DNA of 64,000 bases from Leptolyngbya sp. Heron Island J (lineage in GTDB: Bacteria; Cyanobacteriota; Cyanobacteriia; Phormidesmidales; Phormidesmidaceae). Below are positions 9,784-13,832 of the stretch, piece after piece. Every line of letters begins with the position of its first letter. Position 1 is the first letter of the stretch. The translations under genes and the position numbers were made by a program. The notes beneath the pieces were generated by a model that saw only the letters and a list, made by a program, of their open reading frames with translations, searched no databases and was not told the origin of the DNA. The stretch is taken from contig NZ_AWNH01000043.1 in the NCBI RefSeq assembly GCF_000482245.1, positions 62,001 to 126,000 on the forward strand, in the 5' to 3' direction.

Positions 9784-11004
9784 CTACACCGCTGGTGCCT
9801 GATTGCCGGGAGAGTTGAGGGAAAAGGCAAAGAACGCGATCGCCAGGGTCAATCCGCCAGCCACAAAAAATGGTATGCCGTAGCCATAGGTCACTAACAG
9901 GCCCGAGATCGCCGGACCGATGGCATTGGCGATGCTCAGATATGAGGAGTTGGTCCCCAGAGCTTCACCCTGTTTGTCTTTAGAGGTACGCAGGGACAGC
10001 AGCGAATCAATGAGCGGCATGGGGAAAGCATTGACAATGCCAAAGAAGACTAACAGTATCCAAAAAACCTGAATCGTGGGAAATGAAGGATAGAGGATTA
10101 ACAACACTCCCCGCATAATCAAAGCCGCTACCAGCAGTGTGACGAGATTTACCCGCTGACGTAGGGGCTCTAGCAAGAATACCTGGGAGAGAAACGCCAA
10201 AATTCCAAATAAAACAAAGGCAAAGGCTAAATTCTTGGTGTCTTGCCCCAACACTGTTAGAAAAAAGGGCTGAAAGGCAAACGTAAAAACGGTAAATGTC
10301 GCCCCGTTGAGAAAGGTCATGATAAAAATGCGACCGACCACAGGTTGACGAAAGGAGGTAGCCAAGCGACCAAAGCCAAAATCAGCCAGGGATAGTTTGA
10401 GTTTGAGATCGCACTCAGATGGCGGTCGTGTTTCTGGCAAGATCGTAAAGCAGAGGACTGCTGCCACTAGCGCCATCACTGCCGAAACCACAAAACTCAT
10501 CCCCAAAGGCGTAATCCCCGGTAGCGGCGGCAGCGTCTGGGCAAAATAGGCCAGCGGTGGCCCTACTACAAATCCCAGACGAAACATACCGCCAAAAATA
10601 CCAAAGGCTTGGGTCCGCTGCTCTGGCGTGGTCATGTCGCTGACTACAGCCTGGGCCACCGAATTATTGCCCCCCGTCAGACCATCCAGCATGCGGGCCA
10701 GGTATAGCCACCAAGCAAAGGGACTGACCGCCGCCAGCAGGTTCGCGACCACCGTCCCCAATAAGCTAAGCACCAAAAGCGGTTTGCGACCAATCCGATC
10801 CGACAGTCGCCCCAAAATAGGCGTCCCCAAAAACTGCGACAGCGAAAACGCCGTCGTCAGCAAACTTGCCGCCAGGTCGCTGAGGCCAAACTCCTTAGCA
10901 TAGGGATACAGCGTTGGAATGATGATGGTAAAACTAACGGAGTTAATGAACGCCACCAAAGTGACAATCCAAAACTGTATGGGCAAACGTGACTGGGCAG
11001 CCAT
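9784..11004 (-). CDS. MFS transporter, drug/efflux type
   Basis: 406 residues with about 12 hydrophobic segments. Motif A is present after TM2 (GRLSDRIGRKPLL), and the TM5 region carries GPPLAYF, typical of the drug:H+ antiporter (TetA-like) group. It is an inner-membrane exporter, probably proton-driven. The substrate cannot be told. The gene is alone on its strand, and its promoter side faces the repeat-rich region upstream of leuA. Confidence 0.88.
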   Translation of the reverse strand: MAAQSRLPIQFWIVTLVAFINSVSFTIIIPTLYPYAKEFGLSDLAASLLTTAFSLSQFLGTPILGRLSDRIGRKPLLVLSLLGTVVANLLAAVSPFAWWLYLARMLDGLTGGNNSVAQAVVSDMTTPEQRTQAFGIFGGMFRLGFVVGPPLAYFAQTLPPLPGITPLGMSFVVSAVMALVAAVLCFTILPETRPPSECDLKLKLSLADFGFGRLATSFRQPVVGRIFIMTFLNGATFTVFTFAFQPFFLTVLGQDTKNLAFAFVLFGILAFLSQVFLLEPLRQRVNLVTLLVAALIMRGVLLILYPSFPTIQVFWILLVFFGIVNAFPMPLIDSLLSLRTSKDKQGEALGTNSSYLSIANAIGPAISGLLVTYGYGIPFFVAGGLTLAIAFFAFSLNSPGNQAPAV

Positions 11005-11148
11005 AAAAGCAGTGACGTAAAGTTTTGTAACCCTGTCAGAATATCAGGATGTTCGGCTCAGCAGAAAGAATTCTGAGTTTTGCATACCCCAGGCAAATGC
11101 TTAAAAAATATCTTTCTAAACCAATCACAACAGCGCCCTCAAAATTAG

Positions 11149-11238
11149 CCGTTGCTGATTTACATAATGGACCGATCTGTTAGCAACGCCATGTGTTGGC
11201 ATCTTTTAGAGAAAACTATAGTTCGAATCAGCAACGCA
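11149..11238 (+). repeat. copy B of the ~90-bp palindromic element
   Basis: Starts CCGTTGCTGATTTAC, continues GGACCGATCTGTTAGCAACGCC and ends AATCAGCAACGC. It lies directly upstream of the promoter serving the leader ORF. Confidence 0.75.
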
Positions 11239-11243
11239 TCTAG

Positions 11244-11273
11244 TTGACGTTGTCAAAAAGAGTAGGCTAGAAT
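11244..11273 (+). promoter_or_regulatory. sigma70-type promoter before the leuA leader
   Basis: TTGACG (11244-11249), an 18-base spacer and TAGAAT (11268-11273). Transcription would begin around 11280, about 30 bases before the leader ATG at 11309. I see no equally good promoter closer to leuA. Confidence 0.6.
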
Positions 11274-11308
11274 CTCTCCATTGAGTTTTTACACAAACTT
11301 TTTTTGTC

Positions 11309-11395
11309 ATGAATGCAGTCAAGCAGCTATCGCTACACAGTCTAACTAGCCTTTTCGGGCTAGGACTGCTGCTGCGCCTGGCGCATATTAATTAG
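11309..11395 (+). CDS. candidate leucine-rich leader peptide for leuA
   Basis: A 28-codon ORF from ATG 11309 to TAG 11393-11395. Nine of the 28 residues are leucine, with CTG CTG CTG CGC CTG in the second half (residues 20-24) and CTA codons earlier. No ribosome binding site is evident, but a promoter lies about 36 bases upstream of the ATG. Its DNA also holds a hairpin, CTAGCC / GGCTAG. Leaders with runs of the end-product codon are known to control leucine operons by attenuation in other bacteria. The link here is inferred from composition and position. The leader is 660 bases from leuA, with repeat elements in between. Confidence 0.5.
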   Translation: MNAVKQLSLHSLTSLFGLGLLLRLAHIN

Positions 11396-11472
11396 ACTTC
11401 ACCCAAAAACAACAAACTAGCAGGCTTTTTCTAAGCAGTTTACAGCCTAGTACTCCTATAGATAGGGGCTTT

Positions 11473-11491
11473 CATGGCTTTAGAAGCCATG
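11473..11491 (+). promoter_or_regulatory. hairpin downstream of the leader ORF
   Basis: CATGGCTT and AAGCCATG pair around TAG. With the T-run at 11426-11431 (GCAGGCTTTTT) it is a candidate part of an attenuator. No alternative pairing has been computed. Confidence 0.35.
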
Positions 11492-11543
11492 TCTGCAGCC
11501 GTAGGACAGCTCTTGCGTTCTTCGGCGTGAGACTTCGGCGTGA

Positions 11544-11591
11544 GCTTAGTCGAACGCTCAGTCGAACGCTCAGTCGAACGCTCAGTCGAAC
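11544..11591. repeat. four tandem 12-mers
   Basis: GCTTAGTCGAAC is followed by three exact GCTCAGTCGAAC units, preceded by two copies of CTTCGGCGTGAG. This is a simple array of a type common in cyanobacterial intergenic DNA. Confidence 0.8.
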
Positions 11592-11699
11592 GTACGAGGC
11601 GCAACCCCGACAAGGTTATCTATTGCTCGTTGGCGGCTCTATCGCTTGCCTGCTGCTAAAACTCTCACTCCCCACGGATACCCCATCCTCTCCTATGGG

Positions 11700-11910
11700 G
11701 CTACTGTGTATACACAAATCGAAGAGTAGCTCCAGTTTTCGAGCCCTCATCCCCCCACCCCCTTCTCCCGCGGGGAGAAGGGGAGAAGGGGAGAAGGGGA
11801 GTCAGATCAAAGTCCCTCTCCCCGTGGGAGAGGGGTTTGGGGTGAGGGCCAACTCGGAGGATGAAGCACCTTTCAAAGCACTATCTTCCAAATATGTACA
11901 CACAGTAGCT
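11700..11910. repeat. ~210-bp inverted-repeat (MITE-like) element
   Basis: The ends mirror each other: GCTACTGTGTATACA at the left, and the complement of GCTACTGTGTGTACA at the right, ending CACAGTAGC. A second nested palindrome inside (CCCTCATCCCC / GGGGTGAGGG with GGAGAAGG repeats) resembles widespread cyanobacterial G/C-rich repeats. It encodes nothing obvious and looks non-autonomous. Confidence 0.55.
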
Positions 11911-12056
11911 CTAACTCCCAGAAGCTCCGGGGTAGGTTACCCCTGTCAAAATTTTCCACCCGCCACCAACACCTAAATGTTGGCACTCCTTCGTGTGAGT
12001 AATCTGTTGTGACAGCAGCAGTTTCACTCTCTTCATCTATCCTTATCAAAATCATC

Positions 12057-13832
12057 ATGTTGCAGAATCCCACTCAAAAATACCGTCCATTTCAACCGAT
12101 CCAACTCACAGACCGGACTTGGCCCAGTCGCACTATTACCCAACCTCCCGTATGGCTGAGCACCGATCTGCGCGATGGCAACCAGGCCCTGGCTAACCCG
12201 ATGTCCATTGACCAAAAGCTGCAATTCTTTGAAATGCTCGTGCAGATTGGCCTTAAAGAAATTGAAGTGGGGTTTCCATCGGCCTCGGCAACAGAATTTG
12301 AATTTGTTAGACGTCTGATTGAGGAAGACCGTATCCCCGACGATGTCACCATACAGGTGCTCACCCAGGCTAGAGAATCGCTGATTCGCCGTACCTTTGC
12401 ATCACTACAAGGAGCCAAGCAAGCCATTGTTCACGTCTATAACGCCACAGCTCCTGTCTTCCGACAGGTGGTGTTTGGCAATAGTAAAGCTGAGACCATT
12501 GAGCTGGCGGTCTCAGCAGCAACGTTGATTCGTCAGCTGGCTCAACAACACCCTGAAACCTACTGGCGATTTCAGTATTCTCCTGAGGTGTTTACCTCGA
12601 CCGAGCTGCCCTTTGCTCGAGATATTTGCAATGCGGTGTTGGCGGTATGGCAGCCCACACCTGAGACTAAAGCCGTGATTAATCTGCCCGCCAGTATTGA
12701 GGTGGCTACCCCCAATGTCTTTGCCGACCAGGTGGAGTGGATGCATCGTCATTTGCACTATCGAGATGCGATCGCCCTGAGTGTTCATCCCCACAATGAC
12801 AGAGGCTGCAGTGTTGCCGCCGCAGAACTAGCGCAAATGGCAGGCGCTGACCGTGTCGAAGGGTGTCTATTTGGCAACGGTGAACGGACTGGCAATGTGG
12901 ATCTAGTCACTCTAGCCATGAACCTTTATACCCAGGGAGTCCATCCCGGATTAGACTTCTCAAACATTGACCAGGTGGCCACAGTCGTAAAACAGTGCAC
13001 CCAACTGCCCATTCATCCCCGTCACCCCTACATTGGCGAGCTAGTATTCACCGCCTTTTCCGGTTCTCACCAGGACGCCATTAAAAAAGGATTTGCCCAA
13101 GGACAGCCAAGTGCCCCTTGGGAGATTCCCTATCTGCCCATGGACCCGGCGGATGTAGGCCGCTCCTATGAGGCAATTGTGCGGGTGAATAGCCAATCAG
13201 GCAAGGGCGGTATTGCCTTTTTGCTAGAGCGAGACTATAGCGTAGTATTGCCCAAGCCTTTGCAGATAGAGTTTAGCCAGATCGTGCAGCAAGTGATGGA
13301 TAGCACAGGAGAGGAGATGTCATCTGTGGCAATTTGGCAGCTGTTTTGTCGAACCTATGGCACAGCGCCTGGCCCATTGGTCTATAAAAACCACCACCTG
13401 GAAACCGCTGGCGATAATCATCAGGTGCAACAGCTGGCCATGGAAGTTAGCTATCAACATCAACCGCTACATTTGCAGGGAGCTGGCAATGGCCCTATTG
13501 ATGCGCTAGTGGCGGCCCTGCGTCATGGTGGGTTTGACATTGAGATTGTTGACTATGAAGAACGAGCTTTAAATTCAGGTAGTGGGGCTGAAGCGATCGC
13601 ACTGGTTGCCGTTACTGGCCAAACCCAGTCCCAGCGATACTACGGGATGGGTACCCATCGCAATATTACGACAGCCTCCATATTGGCGGTACTCAACGGC
13701 GTCAACCATTGGCTACAAGCACAGAATAGCCGAGAAAGCGGAGACTGTTTTGTTCGCATCTCCCCTCAAAAAGATAGATTCCACAATCAAACATCTGAGC
13801 CTTATCAGGGTGGCGAGCTTGCCAACCGTTGA
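12057..13832 (+). CDS. leuA: 2-isopropylmalate synthase, long (actinobacterial/yeast-type) form
   Basis: 591 residues from ATG 12057 (a GTG at 12009 would add 16 residues unlike the family). The N-terminal YRPFQPIQLTDRTWPS stretch marks the longer LeuA subtype. STDLRDGNQAL carries the catalytic Arg-Asp, HPHNDRGCS the metal-binding His pair, and GNGERTGNVD the conserved loop. The last ~140 residues form the LeuA dimer/leucine-feedback domain. It condenses acetyl-CoA with 2-oxoisovalerate in the first committed step of leucine synthesis, in the cytosol. It is monocistronic with its own terminator. A leucine-rich leader ORF lies upstream, so attenuation is possible in addition to feedback inhibition. 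Confidence 0.95.
   Translation: MLQNPTQKYRPFQPIQLTDRTWPSRTITQPPVWLSTDLRDGNQALANPMSIDQKLQFFEMLVQIGLKEIEVGFPSASATEFEFVRRLIEEDRIPDDVTIQVLTQARESLIRRTFASLQGAKQAIVHVYNATAPVFRQVVFGNSKAETIELAVSAATLIRQLAQQHPETYWRFQYSPEVFTSTELPFARDICNAVLAVWQPTPETKAVINLPASIEVATPNVFADQVEWMHRHLHYRDAIALSVHPHNDRGCSVAAAELAQMAGADRVEGCLFGNGERTGNVDLVTLAMNLYTQGVHPGLDFSNIDQVATVVKQCTQLPIHPRHPYIGELVFTAFSGSHQDAIKKGFAQGQPSAPWEIPYLPMDPADVGRSYEAIVRVNSQSGKGGIAFLLERDYSVVLPKPLQIEFSQIVQQVMDSTGEEMSSVAIWQLFCRTYGTAPGPLVYKNHHLETAGDNHQVQQLAMEVSYQHQPLHLQGAGNGPIDALVAALRHGGFDIEIVDYEERALNSGSGAEAIALVAVTGQTQSQRYYGMGTHRNITTASILAVLNGVNHWLQAQNSRESGDCFVRISPQKDRFHNQTSEPYQGGELANR

Follow-up and report, generated by a model that had tools for sequence, protein, structure and literature searches.

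Amino-acid attenuation by leader peptides is textbook knowledge for the Proteobacteria and Actinobacteria, and several described systems can be set beside the element reported here, a leader (leader 1) upstream of a leuA gene in the window, i.e., the whole stretch of 64,000 nucleotides that was analysed. According to the accessible part of their description, the classical trp, his and leu attenuators resemble leader 1 in having regulatory codons in a short open reading frame (ORF), stall-sensitive hairpins and an operon promoter (PMC1183508). Unlike these attenuators, as far as the same text goes, leader 1 has control codons that stand at the ORF's end and belong to the 3′ arm of its first hairpin, its second hairpin overlaps the ORF, and it has no demonstrated terminator/antiterminator pair (PMC1183508).

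As for the ilvB-II motif of Corynebacterium, the available sections of its report describe a P2 that is an intrinsic terminator, a uORF that spans P1, and a proposed antiterminator formed by the P1 loop and P2 (PMC10272879). On this partial account, ilvB-II shares with leader 1 the stem-loops P1 and P2, a uORF for branched-chain amino acids that varies by whole codons, a U-run after P2, and its occurrence as a single copy per genome before one biosynthetic gene. Gene and phylum are different, and, unlike in ilvB-II, P2 of leader 1 starts within the Leu run, often lacks an adjacent U-run, and has no conserved antiterminator. Assignment to an ilvB-II-like motif was rejected because P2 is not regularly followed by an immediate U-run terminator: of 56 leaders, 34 have TTTT no more than 16 nt from P2, and the one in the window is not among them.

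In the actinobacterial LEU element, as presented in the accessible portion of its report, the Leu run and the Shine-Dalgarno box of leuA pair with each other, forming the basal stem of a pseudoknot that adjoins the gene (PMC1262725). This element and leader 1 both have a leader peptide with a Leu run before leuA, paired Leu codons and no obvious terminator. However, the run of leader 1 pairs with an upstream segment of the leader, and the leader stop lies 135–839 nt from leuA, so that the base stem with the Shine-Dalgarno box is missing, and the LEU element was rejected as a candidate. Also comparable are the Burkholderiales leaders L088, L113 and L124, which precede a homologous long leuA and have a Leu run in a short ORF; the cyanobacterial leader model matches none of these three. 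Unlike leader 1, L088 and L124 have, by eye, a different peptide and, further down, a hairpin CGGCCCGT..ACGGGCCG with a T-rich stretch behind it. This hairpin resembles an ordinary terminator.

Attenuation had been said to be rarely reported in cyanobacteria, and the accessible part of a 2016 paper agrees, stating that there were no reliable data on it in these organisms (PMC4833913). A literature survey of titles and abstract openings, covering few subscription papers, returned no leucine leader described for cyanobacteria, and the ends of cyanobacterial transcripts are described, in the part of one report at hand, as poorly understood (PMC13289151). Judged from sequence comparison, leader 1 is probably a leucine-sensing, ribosome-dependent leader, an attenuator-type cis-regulatory RNA, of a second, long-type LeuA in a phylum that lacks Rho. 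If so, ribosome-based sensing would become directly testable in a Rho-less phylum, by means of a covarying, leuA-specific leader that spans relatives of Leptolyngbya, Phormidium, Microseira, Fischerella, Chlorogloeopsis and Calothrix, and this would point to the second, long LeuA as the isozyme under regulation.

The long-type leuA and the reading frame upstream

The leuA gene occupies positions 12057–13832 of the + strand and encodes 591 amino acids. Its product scores 751.1 bits against the equivalog cut-off of 697.4 of TIGR00970, which bears out its earlier assignment to the long subtype of 2-isopropylmalate synthase. Genes for a citramalate synthase and for a homocitrate synthase are found elsewhere in the genome, as is one for a short LeuA that scores above the cut-off of TIGR00973, which makes the LeuA of the window a second isozyme. 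Five of the six genus loci of the short leuA were scanned upstream of the gene, and none has a leader-like ORF. On the + strand of the window the order is a promoter-like site, the leader ORF, about 660 nt of non-coding DNA and then leuA. On the opposite side, a divergent MFS transporter gene is found on the − strand at 9784–11004; in NCBIfam it comes nearest to the Tet(A)/(B)/(C) family, with 146 bits against a cut-off of 475.

The promoter-like site, TTGACG-18-TAGAAT, is of the sigma-70 type and lies on the + strand at 11244–11273, ahead of the ORF, where the sequence-only reading had placed it; it would serve the leader/leuA transcript. It is the single site of its type in 10800–12400, and shuffled sequences give 1.7 on average, so that, taken alone, it is no better than chance. 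Its support comes instead from relatives, since a site TTGAC[GCT]-17/18-TANNNT recurs at an equivalent position upstream of the leader in 31 of 33 leader loci. The two loci that miss it are L051 and L030, the latter cut by a contig end, and in L049 and L050 the site stands at a different distance from the leader.

The ORF of leader 1 covers 11309–11395 (+ strand) and has the 28 codons and nine leucines attributed to it earlier (CTA four times, CTG four times, CTT once). Its peptide is MNAVKQLSLHSLTSLFGLGLLLRLAHIN. The probability of nine or more Leu in 27 codons is 0.002 at the Leu frequency of the window, a post hoc value that makes the ORF mildly unusual. The run CTG CTG CTG lies at 11366–11374. 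Thus, what a classical attenuator needs at this place, a short putative leader ORF enriched in Leu codons between promoter and operon, is present. The leader peptides matched no NCBIfam or Pfam family.

Distribution and RNA structure of leader 1

How far is this arrangement shared? At a loose cut-off, a LeuA match is found in all eight genomes of the genus, seven of these being true long-type orthologues. At E ≤ 1e-100, long leuA occurs in 33 of 63 genomes of the family and in five of 386 genomes sampled from the phylum. In this genome search leader 1 was recovered at all 34 long-leuA loci with upstream DNA, 33 by peptide and one (L055) by the RNA model; G054 and G057, which also have long leuA, stand outside the leader 1 counts. 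In a collection of named organisms the leader peptide is present in 13 of 15 cyanobacterial loci, a DNA pattern adds L069 (14 of 15), and the fifteenth locus, L064, has just 310 nt of upstream sequence. The hosts include Leptolyngbya cf. ectocarpi LEGE 11479, of the window's own genus, and members of Fischerella, Chlorogloeopsis, Scytonematopsis, Calothrix, Phormidium and Microseira. Some named loci duplicate unnamed ones (L056, L058, L059, L060, L065, L069, which equals L180, and L114, which equals L175), and the two sets were tallied separately. Non-conservation of the leader in relatives had been named as grounds for discarding the idea; with 34 of 34 and 14 of 15 loci, the leader is conserved.

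The association with leuA is also specific. When 388 genomes of the class were searched with R1, a covariance model built on leader 1, 61 gave a match at E ≤ 0.01, at 62 places. At E ≤ 2e-5 there are 46 places. An intact long leuA, in the same orientation, follows directly in 44 of them; the other two are G020, before a leuA without its middle, and G597, at a contig end. The 16 places with E above 2e-5 are uncounted, among them G627 (L184) and G153, whose locus L185 is identical with L055. The window's own genome has one R1 match. These data indicate that leader 1 is a conserved leucine-codon element tied to the long leuA. In the G020 locus (L166) the leader-bearing leuA is at 740–1649, and its alignment skips query residues 70–317, through either an internal deletion or an assembly fault.

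Three helices can be drawn in the RNA, all on the + strand. In P0, a 5′ arm AGCAGC at 11322–11327 pairs with GCTGCT at 11368–11373, within the Leu run itself. Hairpin P1 (CTAGCC/GGCTAG) is at 11346–11363, and hairpin P2 (TGCGC-CTG-GCGCA) at 11373–11385, with a 5′ arm that begins in the last codon of the run. The RNA of the window folds by itself no better than its shuffles (z −0.66), and since its promoter, Leu count and fold are each unremarkable or mild when taken alone, the support is comparative. It is drawn from an alignment, A6, of 62 rows (56 distinct), in which the model had fitted the rows to the structure, so that the covariation counts for P1 and P2 lean towards the structure. In A6, P1 and P2 together are paired in 94.1% of cells, with 8 of 12 pairs changed on both sides; none of 500 shuffles was as high by any measure, and slid controls were far lower. 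A6 was used in place of an earlier MAFFT alignment with RNAalifold, which had mis-registered P2 (1 of 11 pairs changed on both sides). Independently of A6, a simple stem rule locates P2 in 56 of 60 leaders, a count that includes L180 (L069) and L175 (L114).

P2 takes many forms: besides that of the window there are TGCGCC-TTG-GGCGCA, TGCCC-GTT-GGGCA, TGCGC-GGGC-GCGCA, TGCGC-TAGC-GCGCA and TGCCT-TTA-AGGCA. It starts in the final codon of the Leu run, or immediately after the run in L053 and L057, and it overlaps the end of the ORF rather than following it; the stop codon lies within P2 in L057, L072 and L178, and elsewhere up to about 28 nt past it. The 3′ arm of P2 is found in all three reading frames among the leaders, and the stem is thus conserved as RNA while the peptide after the run changes. 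P0 is the weakest of the three helices. An upstream segment of the leader, usually AGCAGC, pairs with the Leu run over at least five contiguous pairs in 48 of 56 rows, and its partners are replaced in L181 (AGTCGC/GCGACT), L183 and L072. When P0 is added, the paired share of cells is 90.5%, and both sides have changed in 10 of the 18 pairs.

The codons are conserved as well. Between the P0 arm and P2 the spacing preserves the reading frame in 50 of the 56 distinct rows, which come from the RNA model and not from an ORF search, and the Leu run is extended by entire CTG codons in L005 and L007. This spacing and this growth by whole codons point to conservation of both the Leu codons and the hairpins. 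CTA and TTG codons are tolerated in the run. Taken together, the comparisons indicate that selection acts on the RNA of leader 1 as well as on its codons.

No Rfam family matched at the gathering score in 10500–12500 or in eight related loci. Of the hairpins proposed from the sequence alone, P1 and P2 are those conserved in relatives, and a palindrome at 11473–11491 is, by eye, absent from the relatives' downstream DNA. In L031–L048 (genus g7) there is an extra conserved stretch, AAAGGC..GCCCTGAATAG followed by ACTCCCC...GGGAGT, 20–100 nt past the leader stop, which by eye resembles additional, genus-specific stem-loops.

A second reading frame before leuA

Outside the window's family, most loci carry another short reading frame, ORF2, of about 40–75 codons. 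It has the form ...LLRLxxGCQ...WQPDSP..., and its stop overlaps the start of leuA (ATGTTGA in most); examples that overlap the leuA start codon are L062 (2355–2507), L066 (2367–2507) and L072 (2367–2507). ORF2 is present in 25 of 31 loci outside the family, which include the betaproteobacteria Zoogloea (L072), Noviherbaspirillum (L071) and Cupriavidus (L090). Within the family it is found only in L030 and L035 and is absent in 28 of 30 loci. A pattern count had given 27 of 31 and 4 of 30, and these values were lowered after the rows were read, L050, L051, L183 and L071 being false; in L071 the ORF ends short of leuA. ORF2 had no Pfam or NCBIfam match. Behind its Leu codons it has an inner hairpin, GGGTTGTCAG/CTGACAGCCC, of 11 positions, with pairs kept in 17–21 of 21 rows per position and replaced at several; the 21 rows exclude L030 and the length variants L053, L168, L170, L171 and L173. 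The comparison indicates that the window's genus has lost ORF2 and retained leader 1 alone.

Where did the block come from? In a quick tree of LeuA, all but one of the 27 cyanobacterial rows group together (SH-aLRT 99). The exception, L183 (G466), is a cyanobacterial long LeuA placed elsewhere, yet its locus has a leader-1 match (32 bits), P0 and a P2-like stem. Zoogloea (L072) has leader 1 by the model (22 bits, E 0.002) in addition to ORF2, and is the only plausible leader-1 match among 65 non-cyanobacterial loci; in Noviherbaspirillum (L071) the leader is rich in Leu and the proximal hairpin is similar, with no match to the model. These two are placed at two other positions in the LeuA tree. 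Of 64 non-cyanobacterial loci with long leuA, 29 have a Leu-rich leader before the gene, mostly of another kind. It is reasonable to infer that gene and leader were transferred together, and since Zoogloea, elsewhere in the tree, shares both leader 1 and ORF2, the regulatory block may have moved between phyla.

Transcript ends, a proposed mechanism and its rivals

The sequence-only reading had seen a T-run after the hairpins. One is indeed found at 11426–11430 of the + strand (GCAGGC-TTTTT), 40 nt past P2, and a T-run at about +40 is kept in just four of seven genus members (L002, L003, L004 and L008). It is possibly the counterpart of a second T-run that other families have at +20 to +29. Across 38 representative leaders, runs of at least four T after P2 begin at +5–9 nt in 21 cases and at +20–29 nt in 14, whereas a control stretch farther along has 28 runs in a total of sixteen bins of 5 nt. 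By the rule applied, the first T-run is absent in six of the seven genus members; L007 has TTTT at +11, among the matches listed.

Terminator-like hairpins occur between leader and leuA in 32 of 33 loci and in 81 of 99 shuffles. A 2:3 antiterminator, made of the 3′ arm of P1 and the 5′ arm of P2, was tried over 33 representatives and rejected: its own pairing energy was −8.79 kcal/mol and the swapped one −8.89 (sd 0.27), 201 of 300 permutations were as good or better, and the two arms thus show no conserved, mutually exclusive pairing. The bases before the second T-run are suggestive of pairing with the Leu run and P2 (own −4.52, swapped −4.01, with 5 of 500 as low), by a statistic that ignores relatedness. 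A Rho-dependent attenuator was ruled out, because none of 19 genomes, the window's own included, has a Rho above the TIGR00767 cut-off, the weaker matches reaching about 19–40 bits against 509. The locus had been said to have the anatomy of leucine attenuation, and in the classical sense the data do not bear this out: no antiterminator is conserved, the terminator-like hairpins are barely above shuffles, and P2 overlaps the end of the ORF.

What could the leader do instead? Transcription would start about 30–40 nt before the leader ORF, to judge from the conserved promoter, and the nascent RNA would fold as P0 and P1, with the Leu codons themselves base-paired, and as P2. When leucine is plentiful, ribosomes would traverse the run and leave, and P2 would re-form and favour pausing of transcription, or its premature end, at the U-runs that follow. 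A shortage of leucyl-tRNA would hold a ribosome on the CTG run, where it would cover the 5′ arm of P2 and keep P0 and P1 open; the masked hairpin could not form, and RNA polymerase would continue into leuA. In this scheme we infer the transcription start, the leucine response and its direction, and termination as the output. Its difficulty is one of position: a ribosome at the stop codon would cover P2 as well, so that termination at P2 requires release of the ribosome before RNA polymerase advances. Ribosomes could also stall ahead of the run, at the Leu codons near the start of the ORF. A wider reading, put forward tentatively, is that these leaders are a family of leucine sensors in Rho-less cyanobacteria, without a classical terminator/antiterminator pair, in which a Leu run within one hairpin abuts a second that the held ribosome masks directly; most lineages outside the window's family would add ORF2, giving two-step control, transcriptional and translational, of a back-up LeuA, and the block may have moved between phyla.

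The coverage of P2 by a ribosome at the stop codon makes a post-transcriptional output a serious rival, unlikely as we hold it to be. The position of the ribosome would then set the folding of P0, P1 and P2 and, through it, decay or processing of the mRNA, or the translation of ORF2 and hence of leuA. Such an output would suit the overlap of the ORF2 stop with the leuA start and the covarying hairpin behind the Leu codons of ORF2, at 25 of the 31 loci beyond the window's family, as well as a P2 that is conserved even where U-runs are missing and the lack of any conserved terminator or antiterminator. However, 28 of the 30 loci of the window's family have no ORF2 and yet keep leader 1, leaving the stability branch alone in such lineages; a leader 135–839 nt from leuA is too distant and too variable in its distance for direct effects on translation initiation, and the U-runs do cluster after P2. 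The sensor could also be the peptide itself, with a C-terminal GLGLLLRLGRK/N that stalls the ribosome on a metabolite, and the strong similarity of GLGLLLRLG in most families agrees with this. Past the run, however, the residues differ by lineage (RLGRN, RLAHIN, RGRA, PVGH, CL, P, or R alone), and the hairpin is kept in shifted frames; because the hairpin persists while these residues vary, the peptide appears to follow the RNA, and arrest by the nascent chain is scarcely credible.

Another question is whether the leader still works in this strain. Its stop codon lies 661 nt before the ATG of leuA (12057), close to the 660 bases first given, and the idea that repeats had widened this gap was confirmed by two elements found in it. 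Tandem repeats of 12 nt lie at 11520–11591 (+ strand), with similar stretches at five other places in the genome, and a miniature repeat element of 221 nt, with imperfect terminal inverted repeats of 26 nt, lies at 11695–11915 (unstranded); the latter has 54 matches in the genome, nine others of which span at least 190 of the 221 positions. The insertion may, as the sequence-only reading had proposed, weaken the leader's hold on leuA. The leader might therefore be a relic, functional in ancestors and cut off from leuA by the repeats, with leuA read from an internal promoter, and the degradation of the second T-run in three of seven genus members points the same way. Against this, the window has an intact promoter and ORF and an intact P0, P1 and P2, the seven genus members retain the leader at gaps of 218–839 nt (135–839 nt over 33 loci), and the gap has no second promoter-like site, all of which makes a relic quite improbable. 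An inverted end similar to that of the miniature element (GCTAC.GTGTATACACAA) was also seen, by eye, upstream of leuA in L069.
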